From the NCBI RefSeq assembly GCF_025056915.1, contig NZ_JANWVH010000018.1, positions 1 through 38,129 on the forward strand: a stretch of 38,129 bases of DNA, read 5' to 3'. Below the pieces are notes generated by a model. The model was not told the DNA's origin and ran no database searches. It saw only the letters and a program-made list of their open reading frames with translations. The DNA is from Meiothermus sp. Its GTDB lineage: Bacteria > Deinococcota > Deinococci > Deinococcales > Thermaceae. Both the position numbers and the translations under genes were made by a program. Each line of letters opens with the position of its first letter. Positions within the stretch are counted from its first letter, which is position 1. This document shows, piece by piece, positions 1 through 38,129 of the stretch.

Positions 1-81
1 CCATTCGACTATAAGAAAGCTTTGTCCTGGACAGAACAGTGGCCGCCTAACCAGGCGGCCACGACTGTGAAGGGCGCGATA
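1..81 (-). repeat. Family A dispersed repeat, short form, cut by the window edge
   Basis: Read on the minus strand this begins ATCGCGCCCTTCACAG, runs into a perfect 10-bp hairpin (arms 39-48 and 53-62, loop of 4), and continues with the same tail found at 3983-4017. It lacks the middle part of the full element at 3850-4047, and the window starts before its far end is reached. It is the compact version of family A. Confidence 0.8.
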
Positions 82-3849: not shown

Positions 3850-4047
3850 TATCGCGCTCTTCACAGACGTGGCCGCCCCCGAAAACGAGAAGGGACAAAG
3901 AGACGTGCCTCACCGAGGTGAGGCACGCTTGTCTGCGTTGCGTCTGGGCCAAAACGCATGTTTTCGAGTTTCCAGGCGACCACTGTTCTGTTCAGGACAA
4001 AGCTTTCTTATAGTCGAAATAGGTCTAAATATGTGAAGAGCGCTCTA
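3850..4047 (+). repeat. Family A dispersed repeat, full-length copy
   Basis: This 198-bp non-coding element is the reference copy. It has terminal inverted repeats (TATCGCGCTCTTCACA at the left; TAGAGCGCTCTTCACA read inward from the right), a GTGGCCGCC arm, an 11-bp hairpin at 3904-3927 (2-base loop GA), a second hairpin around 3938-3959, and a conserved tail at 3983-4017. Both ends are flanked by TA. It lies between the convergent DUF815 and pyrG genes, and its last three bases form the pyrG stop codon. Confidence 0.9.
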
Positions 4048-5694
4048 AGCGAATCGCTCGTCGGGCTTGAGCAGAATCTGGCGCTTGCGCTCGAGGGCCG
4101 CCCCAATAAATCCGGCAAAAGGCGGCGAAACCCGCATGGGGCGGCTGGAAAGCTCGGGGTGGGCTTGCAGGCCAATAAAGAAGGGGTGATTGGGCAGCTC
4201 GATGGCCTCCACCAGCCCCTCTCCTCGCCCCTGCACCCCCGGCGTCACCGCCGAAACCGTCAGGCCGCCCTCGATGAGACGCTGGACATACACCGGGTTT
4301 ACCTCGTACCGGTGGCGGTGCCGTTCGAAGACCAGTTCCTTGCCGTAAAGCTTGTAAAGCAAAGTTTCGGGGTGGATGCGCATGGGCCAGTTGCCGAGCC
4401 GCATGGTGCCCCCCATGCCTTCGACCTCCAACTGCTCGGGCATCAGGTCTATCACCGGGTGGGGGGTGTACGGGTCGAACTCGGTGCTGTTGGCCCCCTC
4501 GAGGCCCAGCACATTCCGAGCGTATTCAATCACCGCAATTTGCAGCCCCAGGCAGATACCAAAGTAGGGCACCCGGTTCTCCCGGGCATAGCGGGCCGCC
4601 CAAATCTTGCCTTCCACCCCCCGGATGCCAAACCCCGGCCCCACCAGCACCCCATCCACATCGCCCAACAATTCGGCAGCCTTGCCCAGGTCGGTGATGT
4701 CCTCGGCGTTAACCCACTTCACGTTGACCCGCGCATCGTGGGCAATGCCCGCGTGGCGAAAGCCTTCCAGAATGCTCAGGTAGGCATCGGGCATCTTGAC
4801 GTATTTGCCCACAAAGGCCACCGAGACCTCATCGGCAGGCTGCTTGAGTTTGCGTACAGCATTCTGCCAGAAGGTCAGGTTGGGCTGAATTGGCTCCAGG
4901 CCCAGCTTTTTCTCCACCACCCGTCCCAGGCCCTGCTCCTCCAGCACCAGCGGCATCTCGTAGAGAAACTGCACGGTGGGGCTGCTGAAAACCTCTCCTG
5001 CATGCACGTTGGTAAAGAGGGCCACCTTTTTACGCACATCCTCCGGCACCATCTTCTCCGAACGCAGCACCAGCACATCAGGCTGGATGCCCACCCCCCG
5101 CAGGGTAGAGACCGAGTGCTGGGTGGGCTTGGTCTTAAACTCCTCCGAGGTCGCCAGGTAGGGCACCAGGGTCAGGTGCAGGTACATGAGGTCCTGGTCT
5201 TCTTCATCGAACTGAAACTGCCGGATGGCCTCCAGGAAAGGCAGGCTCTCGATGTCGCCCACTGTGCCGCCCACCTCCACCACCACGATATCGGCGTTTT
5301 GCTCGTGGGCGGTGCGGCGGATGCGCTCTTTGATCTCGTCGGTGATGTGGGGAATCACCTGCACGGTCTGGGAGAGGTACTCCCCGCGCCGCTCTTTTTG
5401 GATGACCGAGAGGTAGACCTGCCCGGTGGTGATGTTGTTGGCGCGGGACAGGTCAATGTCCAGGAAGCGCTCGTAGTGGCCGATGTCCAGGTCGGTTTCG
5501 GCCCCATCACCGGTGACAAACACCTCGCCGTGCTCGTAGGGCCGCATGGTGCCCGCGTCCACGTTGACGTAGGGGTCAATCTTGATGGCGGTCACCCGGT
5601 AGCCGCGCCCCCGCAGGATGGCCCCCAGGCTCGAGGTGAGGATACCCTTGCCCAAACTGCTGACCACACCGCCCGTAACAAAAATGTATTTCAC
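4045..5694 (-). CDS. pyrG: CTP synthase
   Basis: This 549-residue enzyme converts UTP, glutamine and ATP to CTP, the last step of de novo pyrimidine nucleotide synthesis. The N-terminal synthetase domain opens with the hallmark P-loop (GGVVSSLGKG, near residues 8-17). The C-terminal class I glutamine amidotransferase domain carries the nucleophile elbow GICLGLQ with C381, and a histidine/glutamate pair in HPELSSRP. Length is normal for the family. The start is GTG at 5694, which overlaps the stop of a 14-codon leader ORF (GTGA). The stop codon TAG (4047-4045) is supplied by the end of a family A repeat, so the C-terminus (ending PDERFA) may have been reset by insertion of that element. Confidence 0.98.
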   Translation of the reverse strand: MKYIFVTGGVVSSLGKGILTSSLGAILRGRGYRVTAIKIDPYVNVDAGTMRPYEHGEVFVTGDGAETDLDIGHYERFLDIDLSRANNITTGQVYLSVIQKERRGEYLSQTVQVIPHITDEIKERIRRTAHEQNADIVVVEVGGTVGDIESLPFLEAIRQFQFDEEDQDLMYLHLTLVPYLATSEEFKTKPTQHSVSTLRGVGIQPDVLVLRSEKMVPEDVRKKVALFTNVHAGEVFSSPTVQFLYEMPLVLEEQGLGRVVEKKLGLEPIQPNLTFWQNAVRKLKQPADEVSVAFVGKYVKMPDAYLSILEGFRHAGIAHDARVNVKWVNAEDITDLGKAAELLGDVDGVLVGPGFGIRGVEGKIWAARYARENRVPYFGICLGLQIAVIEYARNVLGLEGANSTEFDPYTPHPVIDLMPEQLEVEGMGGTMRLGNWPMRIHPETLLYKLYGKELVFERHRHRYEVNPVYVQRLIEGGLTVSAVTPGVQGRGEGLVEAIELPNHPFFIGLQAHPELSSRPMRVSPPFAGFIGAALERKRQILLKPDERFA

Positions 5695-9956: not shown

Positions 9957-10100
9957 CCCCGTGCCCTCTCGAAGGGTGGGTTGGGGTTTCGGACTAGACC
10001 CCCCATCGGCTGGTTGCTTGGAGGGCCAGCCACCACACAGGCCAGGGCTGAACTCGCTCGCCCTTAGGCAGGGTTGCACGGGCTTTTGTGCGGCAACTAG
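9957..10100 (+). repeat. Family B dispersed repeat, divergent copy
   Basis: This stretch shares with 24015-24250 and 12850-13075 the core CCCATCGGCTG and CTTG(c/g)..GGGCCAG, then CTCGC, and a GGGCTTTTGTGCGGCA end matching CGGCTTTTATGCGCCA in the best copy. It fills most of the 302-base gap between the ymdB-like and yyaL-like genes; bases 9795-9956 hold nothing I recognise. The repeat end reaches the stop codon of the gene at 10097. Confidence 0.6.
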
Positions 10101-12638: not shown

Positions 12639-12804
12639 TAGAGCGCTCTACACATATTCTGAGCCATTCGAGTTCGACAAAGCCCGGTTCTGAACCGAAC
12701 AGTGGCGGCCTGGAAACTCGAAAACATGCGTCCCGGCCCAGACGCAACGCAGACACTTGTCCCTTCTCGTCTTCGTGGGCGGCCACGTCTGTGAAGAGCG
12801 CGAT
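12639..12804 (-). repeat. Family A dispersed repeat, copy lacking the inner hairpin
   Basis: This is an inverted copy of the element at 3850-4047. It starts TAGAGCGCTCTACACATAT and ends GTGAAGAGCGCGAT. At 166 bp it is shorter because the roughly 30-base module with the 11-bp hairpin is absent: GGGACAA joins almost directly to GTCTGCG. The rest of the element is well conserved. Confidence 0.88.
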
Positions 12805-12849: not shown

Positions 12850-13075
12850 TACGGTTAAATCCTGTGTCGCATTAAAGCCCAAAAAAACCACCCGCACGGT
12901 GAGCGAAATAAGTCAATCCTGGCCTGGACTCGCTCTGTTCCTCCCAAGGGAGGCCAGGTGGGGTGGCTGACCTGGCCCTTCACGCAAGCAGCCGATGGGG
13001 GGTCTTTCCGATACCCTCCCAAACCCTACCTGTGCAGGGCTATCACTCTTTGGAATCTGTGGGCGTGGATGGGTT
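12850..13075 (-). repeat. Family B dispersed repeat, inverted copy
   Basis: Read on the minus strand it matches 24015-24250 closely. Shared words are GATTCCAA, GGGAGGGTATCGGA, CCCATCGGCTGCTTGCGTGA, AGGGCCAGG, GGGAGGAACAGAGCGAGTCC, AGGCCAGGATTGACTT and TTCGCTCACCGTGCGGGTGG. It ends with a GGGCTTTAATGCGACACAG tail. Confidence 0.88.
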
Positions 13076-14431: not shown

Positions 14432-14984
14432 AGGGCCGGTAGCGGGTTCACAGCAAACGGCTTTGACCCTGGCGCAACGCCCATCACGACCGTACCTCGG
14501 TCGGGCCTCGGATTGCTCGCCGCGCTCGGAAAGAGGCATCTGAGCAGGTTTCTGACTGCCATCCAGGTTTCTGCGCCCAGTATTTTTTTACCCTGGGGGT
14601 GACCGGGCTGGCACCGGCATCCGAACGGTTGAGGTGACTACCTGGCTTATCCGTCAGCTGTTGCGCTCCTCAAGACGTGACCGCCCACCCAGGCGGACCT
14701 TGTTCCGTCGGGGACAAAGCATTCTCGAAGTCAAACGGCTCAGGATATGACTCTCTGGATACTCAAGCTGTGCGCGGGCAGCAGGAGCTTGGCATCCGCC
14801 CCCTGTCCCCTAATCCCAAACCCCTGCTCCACCCGTCTTCGACCAAAGCAGTTTGCGAGGTGTTTTAGGAAGGGCGGTATCAGGTGTCCAACACAACATG
14901 TAACCCTCAAACAAGGTTCGGCGGGTCAGGCGCTGGGGTTCCCGGTTCGGAAATGCATAATGGCACAATCTAGCGTCACCTCCT
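14432..14984. other. Intergenic region before clpA
   Basis: This 550-base stretch has no supported gene. It holds a decayed short family A copy (14664-14755). The rest shows no recognised feature apart from the clpA promoter at its end. Confidence 0.6.
14664..14755 (+). repeat. Decayed short family A repeat
   Basis: The order of words follows the short form at 1-81 (read inverted): GCGCTCCTCAAGACGTGACC, CGCCCACCCAGGCGG, TTGTTCCGTCGGGGACAAAG, CATTCTCGAAGTCAAA, then GGATATGACTCTCT where the intact element has ATATGTGAAGAGCGCTCTA. The hairpin and right terminal repeat are mutated. Confidence 0.6.
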
Positions 14985-17352: not shown

Positions 17353-17539
17353 ATCGCGCTCTTCTCAGACGTGGCCGCCCACGAAAACGAGAGACAAAGA
17401 GACGTGCCTCACCTCGGTGAGGCACGCTTGTCTGCGTTGCGTCTGGGCCGAGACGCATGTTTTCGAGTTTCCAGGCCGCCACTGTTCAGAACAGGCTTTC
17501 TCAAACTCGAATGGCCCATAATGTGTGAAGAGCGCTCTA
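17353..17539 (+). repeat. Family A dispersed repeat with inverted inner hairpin
   Basis: This 187-bp copy lies in the same orientation as 3850-4047. Its left end is ATCGCGCTCTTCTCAG, and its right end TGTGAAGAGCGCTCTA closes at 17539. The inner 24-base hairpin (17403-17426) has loop TC where the other copy has GA, so the module is inverted. A second hairpin here is a perfect 7-bp TGCGTCT/AGACGCA. The element separates convergent clpA and the VWA gene, and its last bases provide the VWA stop codon. Confidence 0.9.
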
Positions 17540-18727
17540 ACGACCGGTGCGGGCGTTGCGGGGTTTGCGGTGGGTGGAGTTGAGGCTATCGGCCTCGGTC
17601 AGAAAGGCCTTGGCAAACCAGATGGCCTCACGCTGCTCAAAGGCGCGGGTGAGTCGCTCGAGTCGGGCCTCGAGTTGGCCAAGCTGGGCGAGCAACTGGG
17701 GTGTCCGGGGGTCTCTATGGCCCTCCAGGGTCGCCCGAATGGTTAGGGCAGCTTCCAGCAAGGCCTGGGCCTGCTCTGGCCCCTCCAGGTCGCTTAGCCT
17801 GGCGTAGAGTTGCCTTAGCTGGGCGACGCCCCGCTCAAAGGCCACCTGCTGGTAATCGGGGCCTGCGGCCACAGGTTCCGGCAGGGTTAGCCGATAGCGC
17901 TCCCGGCCCCGGGGTCCAAGCACCTCTGCTTCCAGTACGGGAGCCTCCACAGGAGCCTCCGAAAGGGGCTCGAGCCGCAGCAGCAGGGTTCGCACCTCAC
18001 CAGGAGCCATCGGGCCCAGTCGGCCCTGCGCCCTTTCCCACACCCCCAAAAGCGGGGTAGCCCTTGCCCCAAGCAGCCGGAGTTCCACCCCATCCAGCAC
18101 TGCCCCACGCAAAAAGGAGAGCTCTTCCAGCAGGGCTTCGGTCAGCTCTGGGGCCGCCTCGTCGGGCAAGAACAGATGGGTACCCCCACCCACCTCGGCC
18201 ATGTAGGAGAGGAGGGCCTCGTTGTAGCCCAGGCCAATTCCGACCGTGCTGGTGTAGACCCCTTGCTGCGCCGCGCGGAGCACCTCGGCCGCGATGGCCT
18301 CGGGCCGGGTCAGGCCCTGGTTGGCCTGCCCATCGGTGAGCAGCAGCACCACGCGCAGCCGCCCCTGTTCTGAAAGCATCTGGCAGCCCACCCGCCAGCC
18401 CTGGAAGAGGTTGGTGCTACCCTGCGCGTCCAGGGTAGCCATGAAAAAGCGAGCCTCGCCCGCACCCACCCAGCCCTCGGAGCGCATCACCTCATCGTTG
18501 AAGGCCACCAACCCCAGGCGTACCTCGTGGCCGGCAAGGGTTTTGAGGATTCCTTCGGTGGCCTCCTTGGCGGCCTGCAAGCGGGTACCGGCCATGCTGC
18601 CCGAACGATCTATTACCAGCGCCAGGTCCAGCCGCCGGGCCTGCAAGCCCTCGCGTGGGGCCTGAATCTCCAACCGCAAGAGGTCTTCGCCGTTTATCCA
18701 AGCTCGTTGTGCCCGAATCTGTGTCAC
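17537..18727 (-). CDS. von Willebrand factor A (VWA) domain protein
   Basis: This 396-residue soluble protein has a VWA domain at about 30-205 with an intact metal-ion adhesion site, D40-R-S-G-S44, plus a GSTNLFQG threonine and LLTDGQANQG aspartate. The C-terminal half is beta-rich, then helical and Leu/Glu-rich (possible coiled coil near 320-390). There is no signal peptide or transmembrane helix. Related bacterial proteins include YfbK-like and TerY-like VWA proteins, but no partner ATPase is adjacent. GTG 18727 is preferred over the upstream TTG at 18739 because GGAGG (18737-18733) lies 5 bases before it. The stop TAG (17539-17537) comes from the family A repeat, so the C-terminal end may have been altered by the insertion. 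Confidence 0.85.
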   Translation of the reverse strand: MTQIRAQRAWINGEDLLRLEIQAPREGLQARRLDLALVIDRSGSMAGTRLQAAKEATEGILKTLAGHEVRLGLVAFNDEVMRSEGWVGAGEARFFMATLDAQGSTNLFQGWRVGCQMLSEQGRLRVVLLLTDGQANQGLTRPEAIAAEVLRAAQQGVYTSTVGIGLGYNEALLSYMAEVGGGTHLFLPDEAAPELTEALLEELSFLRGAVLDGVELRLLGARATPLLGVWERAQGRLGPMAPGEVRTLLLRLEPLSEAPVEAPVLEAEVLGPRGRERYRLTLPEPVAAGPDYQQVAFERGVAQLRQLYARLSDLEGPEQAQALLEAALTIRATLEGHRDPRTPQLLAQLGQLEARLERLTRAFEQREAIWFAKAFLTEADSLNSTHRKPRNARTGR

Positions 18728-18816
18728 ATTATCCTCCAAAGCCAGTATCCCGATGCCTGTTTTTTCGCTCGACGGAATGGGGGCGTTTCGCCTGTTTTTG
18801 CAAGGGGCTTTACAGT

Positions 18817-24014: not shown

Positions 24015-24250
24015 CACGCGCCCACCGATTCCAAGGAACGATGCCCCTCGAGCCCCTCCCGAGCGCGCAGGGATGGTTGGGGAGGGTATCGGACAGGACC
24101 TCCCATCGGCTGCTTGCGTGAAGGGCCAGGCCCGCAACCCCACCCGGTCTCCCCTTCGAGGTTGGGGAGGAACAGAGCGAGTCCAGGCCAGGATTGACTT
24201 GATTCGCTCACCGTGCGGGTGGGGTTGTACGGCTTTTATGCGCCACAGTA
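24015..24250 (+). repeat. Family B dispersed repeat, best copy
   Basis: This reference copy of family B shares almost continuous similarity with the inverted copy at 12850-13075 and a weaker match with 9957-10100. Key words include GGGAGGGTATCGGA, CCCATCGGCTGCTTGCGTGA, GGGAGGAACAGAGCGAGTCC, TTCGCTCACCGTGCGGGTGG and a CGGCTTTTATGCGCCACAG end. It has no long ORF and no family A terminal repeat. It lies in the 637-base gap before gyrA; 23907-24014 holds nothing I recognise. Confidence 0.85.
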
Positions 24251-24287
24251 TTGAGCTTTTCTAGTATGGTCGCCTGTGCGCCTGAAG

Positions 24288-37927: not shown

Positions 37928-38020
37928 CCTCAGCGTTCGAAGGTTCTGCACCCGGCTAGAAACCACTCCCCCTGCGAACAGGGGAAGGTTGTAATACCAA
38001 ATCTACGACGAGGTAACACA

Positions 38021-38129
38021 TAGAGCGCTCTTCACCTATTGTGAGCCACTCGAGTTCGAGTCTGAACAGAACAGTGGCCGCCCGGAAACTCGAAAACATG
38101 CGTCCCGGCCCAGACGCAACGCAGACAAG
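38021..38129 (-). repeat. Family A dispersed repeat, cut by the window end
   Basis: It starts TAGAGCGCTCTTCACC and follows the inverted element through GTGGCCGCCCGGAAACTCG, AACATGCGTCCCGGCCCAGA and CGCAACGCAGACAAG up to the window edge. The final AAG matches the copies that contain the inner hairpin, so the missing part probably includes it. Confidence 0.9.

Follow-up and report, generated by a model that had tools for sequence, protein, structure and literature searches.

The stretch of DNA analyzed here (the window) is one whole contig of 38,129 nucleotides from a Meiothermus sp., in which a short repeat, family A, lies next to pyrG and at five other places. The features on which the argument turns are as follows.

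1-81, minus strand: core-form copy of family A, truncated at the beginning of the contig.
3850-4047, plus strand: the copy under study, measured from TA to TA, with its right end within the pyrG stop codon.
3852-3865, plus strand: left terminal repeat of this copy, TCGCGCTCTTCACA.
3903-3928, no strand assigned: internal hairpin ACGTGCCTCACCGAGGTGAGGCACGC, which belongs to the unit absent from the copy at 12639-12804.
4032-4045, minus strand: right terminal repeat of this copy, GAGCGCTCTTCACA (minus strand), with TA at 4046-4047 on its outer side.
4045-4047, minus strand: TAG stop codon of pyrG, made of the flanking TA and the first G of the right end.
4045-5694, minus strand: pyrG, whose stop codon holds the right end of the copy under study.
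12639-12804, minus strand: copy without the GTGCCTCACC hairpin.
14663-14749, plus strand: degenerate core-form copy without a right terminal repeat.
17353-17539, plus strand: full copy, its right end serving as the stop codon of a VWA-domain gene.
17537-18739, minus strand: VWA-domain gene, with its stop formed by the right end of the copy at 17353-17539.
37995-38022, plus strand: remnant of an IS630-type terminal repeat, TACCAAATCTACGACGAGGTAACACATA.
38021-38129, minus strand: copy truncated by the contig end and located at the TA of that remnant.

Six copies in both orientations had been described in an earlier note on this DNA, and BLAST searches with the consensus and with the short core form returned these six and no seventh. 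All of the listed copies are real, but those at 1-81 and 14663-14749 belong to a shorter core form (~106 bp when complete), and the copy at 12639-12804 lacks an internal hairpin that is present in the other aligned copies of the same genome. Where a window copy has the end in question, right ends do finish in TA and left ends in TA or CA, as the note states. With up to two mismatches allowed, GCGCTCTTCACA has 11 matches against 3.76 expected, a count that 0 of 100 shuffles reached, and repeat pairs agree at 96% over 67 nt and at 91% over 106 nt. Two copies are cut by the contig ends and, because the window is one whole contig, each end of the contig is a break within the repeat. The copy at 38021 and another in the same genome (L026) occupy the same TA of the IS630-type terminal repeat in opposite orientations.

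Family A is small, protein-less mobile DNA of Meiothermus that inserts at TA. The consensus for the window's own genome is ~197 bp long and reads TA, TCGCGCTCTTCACA, internal hairpins, TGTGAAGAGCGCTC, and TA; the ends are near-inverted over 14 bp, and in a young subfamily of a finished congeneric genome, G011, the two ends are identical for 13 bases, beginning with the second one. Sizes cluster near 106, 150, 165, 190-197, and 260-280 bp, giving a range of ~106-280 bp when nested repeats are excluded; the larger G011 copies carry other repeats inside. The number of internal hairpins varies among copies, which may reflect either gain or loss of hairpins. At the tip of the GTGCCTCACC hairpin, copies from the same genome have either of two bases, GA or TC (the reverse complement), as if the tip had been inverted.

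The family is abundant in its own genome, where at least 52 matches are listed, at least 40 of them long (143-198 bp, 85-100% identity) and at least 12 short, the short ones being reverse readings of the inner palindrome; of 285 first-look candidates, 40 were scored. The 14-mer GAGCGCTCTTCACA occurs 86 times there, against 0 for the backwards control, and the flanks of 28 aligned copies are distinct when compared by eye. Across the genus, 11 of 18 genomes (the window's own included) match family A, and a stricter pattern for one left-end form was found in 4 of 50 genomes of the taxonomic family, all within the genus. An exact 22-mer retrieved four stretches from a genome collection, all from one uncultured Meiothermus assembly, in a search from which records of the window's own genome were possibly excluded; the genome collections hold one genome per species.

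The target site was examined in 89 distinct insertions with both ends present, 29 from the window's own genome and the rest mostly from G011. (A first pass had given 91, from which we removed one element counted on both strands and L003, which joins the ends of different copies.) TA stands at 73 left ends and 75 right ends, and at both in 60 insertions; outside the flanking TA, a pyrimidine precedes in 73 and a purine follows in 66, for a consensus of Y-TA-R. At lengths of 3 to 9 bp the two flanks agree no better than shuffled pairs do, and the same is true of the 2-bp flank match (0.809 versus 0.820), which is uninformative because TA is nearly constant. A 7-base duplication, AGCTTTG, was considered as a rule and rejected, since it was seen at one copy, L014, and is not general over the 89 insertions.

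The case for a TA duplication therefore rests on a clean empty site. The earlier note had held that empty sites with a single TA would support transposition, and one orthologous site provides such a case: L025 of the window's own genome reads ATCC-TA-element-TA-AGGG, and G011 C1 near 454,220 reads ATCC-TA-CGGG, with a single TA when empty. Of 71 entries, which include some duplicates, no other passed a strict filter on the flanks, because spacers have diverged between species. The G003/G014 genome pair gave no clean family A site, both genomes being rearranged at one copy, and at three candidates for sites shared between G000 and G011 (L007, L023, and L030) the alignment was too poor to tell a shared insertion. 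At the pyrG site itself, 15 pyrG loci of relatives have no match to the element, and the copy is absent from the orthologous spacer in the eight relatives read, the boundary there being approximate. The pyrG spacer of G014 (L046, ~1260-1500) carries an unrelated insertion of ~170 bp with a possible flanking repeat, GGTAGAA, which is missing from the otherwise similar G003 spacer.

No transposase-bearing element with family A ends was found in the sequence searched, which covers base by base a minor part of the genomes other than G011, and we infer a partner acting in trans. The full-length IS with the same terminal repeats that the earlier note had proposed to look for did not appear in 30 IS630-type loci, the long repeats of 1.64 Mb of G011, or three IS5-type loci. 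The DDE_3 domain has matches in 14 of 18 genomes and none in the window's own, and GCGCTCTTCACA is absent at up to one mismatch from the 30 DDE_3 loci read. About 2.16 of the 3.2 Mb of G011 was fetched and 1.64 Mb of it (C1) was searched for long repeats, among which none of 500 bp or more has family A ends; likewise, inspection by eye of the exact 13-mer ends in G011 (at least 107) showed no two facing ends 0.9-3.5 kb apart that lacked a further end in the interval. G011 does contain an IS630-type element of 1107 bp (L082:1355-2461, that is, C1 753976-755082) with a 100% identical copy on C2 (L093) and likewise identical 503-bp internal derivatives. Its transposase is split over two frames and its ends are TACCAACTCTACGACGAGGTGACACATA and TACCAAATCTCCCTCGAGGTGACAC; these and the other IS630-type ends read differ from those of family A. 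Because no transposase with these ends was found, the assignment to IS630/Tc1 is one by target behavior only.

An IS5-type (IS427-like) parent is an alternative to an IS630-type one. IS5-type elements are associated with YTAR targets, and DUF4096, which we take to be a domain of IS5-type transposases, has matches in 17 of 18 genomes, the window's own included, where DDE_3 has none. Searches with DUF4096 (18 genomes) and DDE_Tnp_1 (6 genomes) led to three loci that were read, a minority of such loci, two in the window's own genome and one in G011; none of the three has family A ends, the only resemblance being one 12-mer with 2 mismatches. Since, in addition, a duplication longer than TA was not seen among the 89 insertions, we consider an IS5-type parent unlikely.

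The two ends of family A are not equivalent in their first base inside the TA, which is G at 74 of 75 right ends and C or T at 70 of 73 left ends (G at the other 3). Gene context could be assigned for 80 insertions, after 9 of the 89 were dropped for want of a neighboring gene in the locus, using gene calls from a codon-usage script trained on G011 rather than a standard gene finder. Of these 80, 69 fall between genes, 10 run over the end of a gene, and 1 is inside a frame. In 16 of 80 insertions TA plus the right end forms the stop codon of the neighboring gene, and in 0 of 80 the left end does so. These stops read TAG, except that of the mutated copy L025, which reads TAA. Single ends in G011 behave in the same way: at up to two mismatches a gene stop coincides with 11 of 56 right ends versus 0 of 48 left ends (Fisher p = 7.7e-4), at three mismatches the counts are 12 of 63 and 0 of 56, and in the set with up to two mismatches no gene continues into a right or a left end. 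The left end of the own-genome consensus, read in the stop-codon frame, would add 23 residues to a protein.

Most of these stops appear to have been present before the element arrived. When the flanks are rejoined with one TA, 9 of the 16 cases regain TAG or TAA at that very codon, the pyrG copy included; in L014, L020, and L025 the G011 orthologs stop at the same residue with TAG. With L025 supported in both ways, an original stop is supported in 11 of 16. The pyrG case rests on the rejoined site because ortholog tails vary in length and stop codon, none of those aligned ending at the same residue. The 5 cases without support for an original TAG or TAA are L006, L017, the window copy at 17353-17539, whose far side is no longer TA and whose original stop is unconfirmed, and two in G011. 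For one of the latter (993338) the ortholog in G000 also stops at that residue, with TGA as the codon, and one unsupported case restores TAT on rejoining.

These five, and the restored TAT in particular, are what might be expected if the right-end stops were mostly truncations, in which the element hit coding sequence and its TAG ended the frame. Restoration of an in-frame TAA or TAG, however, would be impossible inside a gene, and it accounts for nine cases; the three orthologs that stop at the same residue and the lack of any gene running on into a left end (0 of 48) also speak against truncation, which is quite improbable as the general explanation.

The orientation bias of the stop-codon insertions is clear: 16 to 0 (p = 3.1e-5), and the supported cases alone give 11 to 0 (p = 9.8e-4). 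The same clarity does not extend to an excess over what is expected. Under random orientation, weighting the four target bases gives an expected share of 4.5% (p = 4.9e-7 for 16/80 and 9.1e-4 for 11/80), and a plain Y-TA-R target gives 7.6% (p = 3.0e-4 and 0.039). If left-facing insertions were always lost, the expected shares rise to 9.0% with weighted bases (p = 0.0019 for 16/80 and 0.10 for 11/80) and 15.2% with plain Y-TA-R (p = 0.15 and 0.69). All of these shares were derived from G011 C1 and applied to copies from several genomes, and the weights behind the 4.5% and 9.0% were computed on the set of 91 insertions. Because the supported cases exceed neither survivor expectation (p = 0.10 and 0.69), survival of silent insertions may suffice to explain the stop-codon share, without targeting. 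A tentative further idea, which we hold to be possible though somewhat less probable than its converse, is that the asymmetric ends are an adaptation to the stop-codon niche, with selection keeping the G so that insertion into TAA or TAG rebuilds TAG.

A second repeat family in G011, with TAGTGGTCTGGTAAC at both ends, is present, in the stretches scanned, in 116 copies that have both ends, a count made without the duplicate filtering used for family A. It also lies at Y-TA-R, and 19 gene stops fall at the edges of its copies, of which 13 restore TAG or TAA. No gene stop was found among 119 ends of a family whose ends begin with TAC, which is a weak control, since many copies of that family are embedded in other repeats. 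In the window, a second repeat family occurs in inverted orientation at 12858-13035 and 24065-24252 and also at 9996-10029; its interior resembles, by eye, the TAGTGGTCTGGTAAC family of G011. A third family, of ~95-104 bp with ends TATCGCGTTTCCCAC and TAGAGCGGCCTCCCAC, was seen at L144:17257-17360 (compared with L147 near 950-1050), L150:11804-11898, and L152:8675-8769. It has two hairpins whose stem sequences differ among copies with pairing kept, and a duplication of up to four bases (CTCA) is compatible with an empty site in G014.

The possibility that family A is a REP/ERIC-like repeat with a host function, as a two-way terminator or a stabilizer of mRNA 3' ends between convergent genes, draws on its folding and its distribution. 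The copy under study folds strongly as a single strand relative to shuffles (DNA z = -4.8; RNA z = -5.2 and -6.2) and has one terminator-like hairpin on its minus strand, and 29 of 72 family A copies lie between convergent genes versus 17.7% of the intergenic bases of G011 C1 (p = 6.6e-6). Yet the terminator scan yields 0.6 such sites on average in shuffles, a convergent bias is also expected from silent insertion at gene ends, and the copy is absent from orthologous spacers. Among 28 aligned copies of the window's own genome, most of the predicted pairs are either unaltered or disrupted, and 1 of 45 has changed on both sides, so that the pairs break freely and hardly covary. This breakage fits decay after insertion, not upkeep as an RNA. 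At the gathering score, Rfam matched four tRNAs alone in the window and no RNA family for family A; the tRNA genes, for Arg(TCT), Gly(TCC), Pro(TGG), and Lys(CTT), lie at 262-964. With hardly any covariation and no Rfam family, a host RNA function was rejected, and a host-function repeat more broadly is very improbable.

An origin in plasmids or phages was rejected, as a search of 72,556 plasmid and 50,697 phage records gave no match. As a raw count, the 14-mer GAGCGCTCTTCACA is contained in 42 viral-contig stretches, once in each and never paired within a stretch.

Our preferred reading, to which we give a probability of about 0.77, is that family A is a nonautonomous, TA-targeted DNA transposon, that is, a MITE, moved in trans by an IS630/Tc1-like transposase, with a right end that spares stop codons. 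It is short, multicopy, and without a transposase gene; it has terminal inverted repeats, and a target-site duplication is seen at one orthologous empty site. It shares a TA target with a 2-bp duplication with IS630/Tc1/mariner elements; ends matching an IS630-type element were found neither in the 30 DDE_3 loci nor among the IS ends read. The earlier note's description of a MITE-like, TA-targeted, nonautonomous element thus holds, given the distinct flanks, the terminal repeats, the Y-TA-R consensus, the single-TA empty site, and the absence of the copy from the pyrG site of relatives, while its "IS630/Tc1 type" stands as a statement about target behavior only. Its REP/ERIC-like alternative is weaker as a claim of membership, although ERIC is similar in architecture.

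As a mechanism, we propose that a Tc1/mariner-like (IS630-type) cut-and-paste transposase, absent from or unrecognized in the sequence searched, would act in trans on the ends of family A. Since the right end begins with G, TA plus G reads TAG, and an element that lands in the TA of a stop codon (TAA or TAG), its right end facing the gene, rebuilds the stop at the same codon. Such insertions would be silent and hence presumably kept, and stop codons at gene 3' ends would thereby become part of the niche of the element. After insertion, copies decay and hardly covary.

ISY100, of the IS630 family, inserts at TA with TA duplication, and the same article cites a reference whose title states that IS630 prefers CTAG (PMC2170065). 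TA insertion with TA duplication is common to family A and to the IS630/Tc1/mariner elements ISY100 and the 1107-bp IS of G011, from which family A differs in having no transposase and in ends unlike those of the G011 IS and the other IS630-type ends read. The RUP elements of Streptococcus pneumoniae are linked to an IS630-type element. They are ~107 bp long, with 108 copies, intergenic, bounded by terminal inverted repeats, and thought to be moved in trans (PMC2229807). Family A is like RUP in all of these respects, movement in trans being supposed for both, but RUP has a proposed partner IS and family A has none found; unlike RUP, family A has an end that rebuilds stop codons and internal hairpins that vary in number.

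The ERIC (RU-1 and RU-2) elements of enterobacteria, at 103-168 bp, have stable stem-loops, TA ends, and TA duplications; their transfer mechanism is described as not known, and at one gene 3' end an ERIC insertion removed the stop and extended the protein (PMC2759123). The likeness to family A in size, stem-loops, TA ends, and TA duplications is one of description, and family A keeps the stop where that ERIC case lost it. Correia elements have a TA duplication. In Neisseria, these elements (NEMIS) come in two size classes and give stem-loop transcripts, with reported fusions of the 107-bp form to open frames (PMC2229807). Family A shares the two size classes, the stem-loops, and the TA duplication, whereas it is mainly intergenic (69/80). 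REP sequences have a GTAG-type end and a RAYT gene. They are palindromes of 20-40 bp (PMC3733652), so that, on the published description, size and terminal repeats already separate REP/RAYT from family A. In titles and abstract openings, with subscription papers mostly outside the search, we found no account of the family A repeat in Meiothermus and none of a MITE whose end rebuilds a stop codon. By analogy with RUP, ERIC, and Correia, family A appears to work as TA-targeted MITEs do, an ordinary kind of element in an unusual insertion niche.

For this Meiothermus, family A puts a name to the repeat class at which the contig breaks. More generally, it offers a countable case in which the end of a mobile element preserves a host stop codon and thereby makes the 3' ends of genes safe places to land, and the same stop-codon count is applicable to any TA-targeting element with A or G after the TA.
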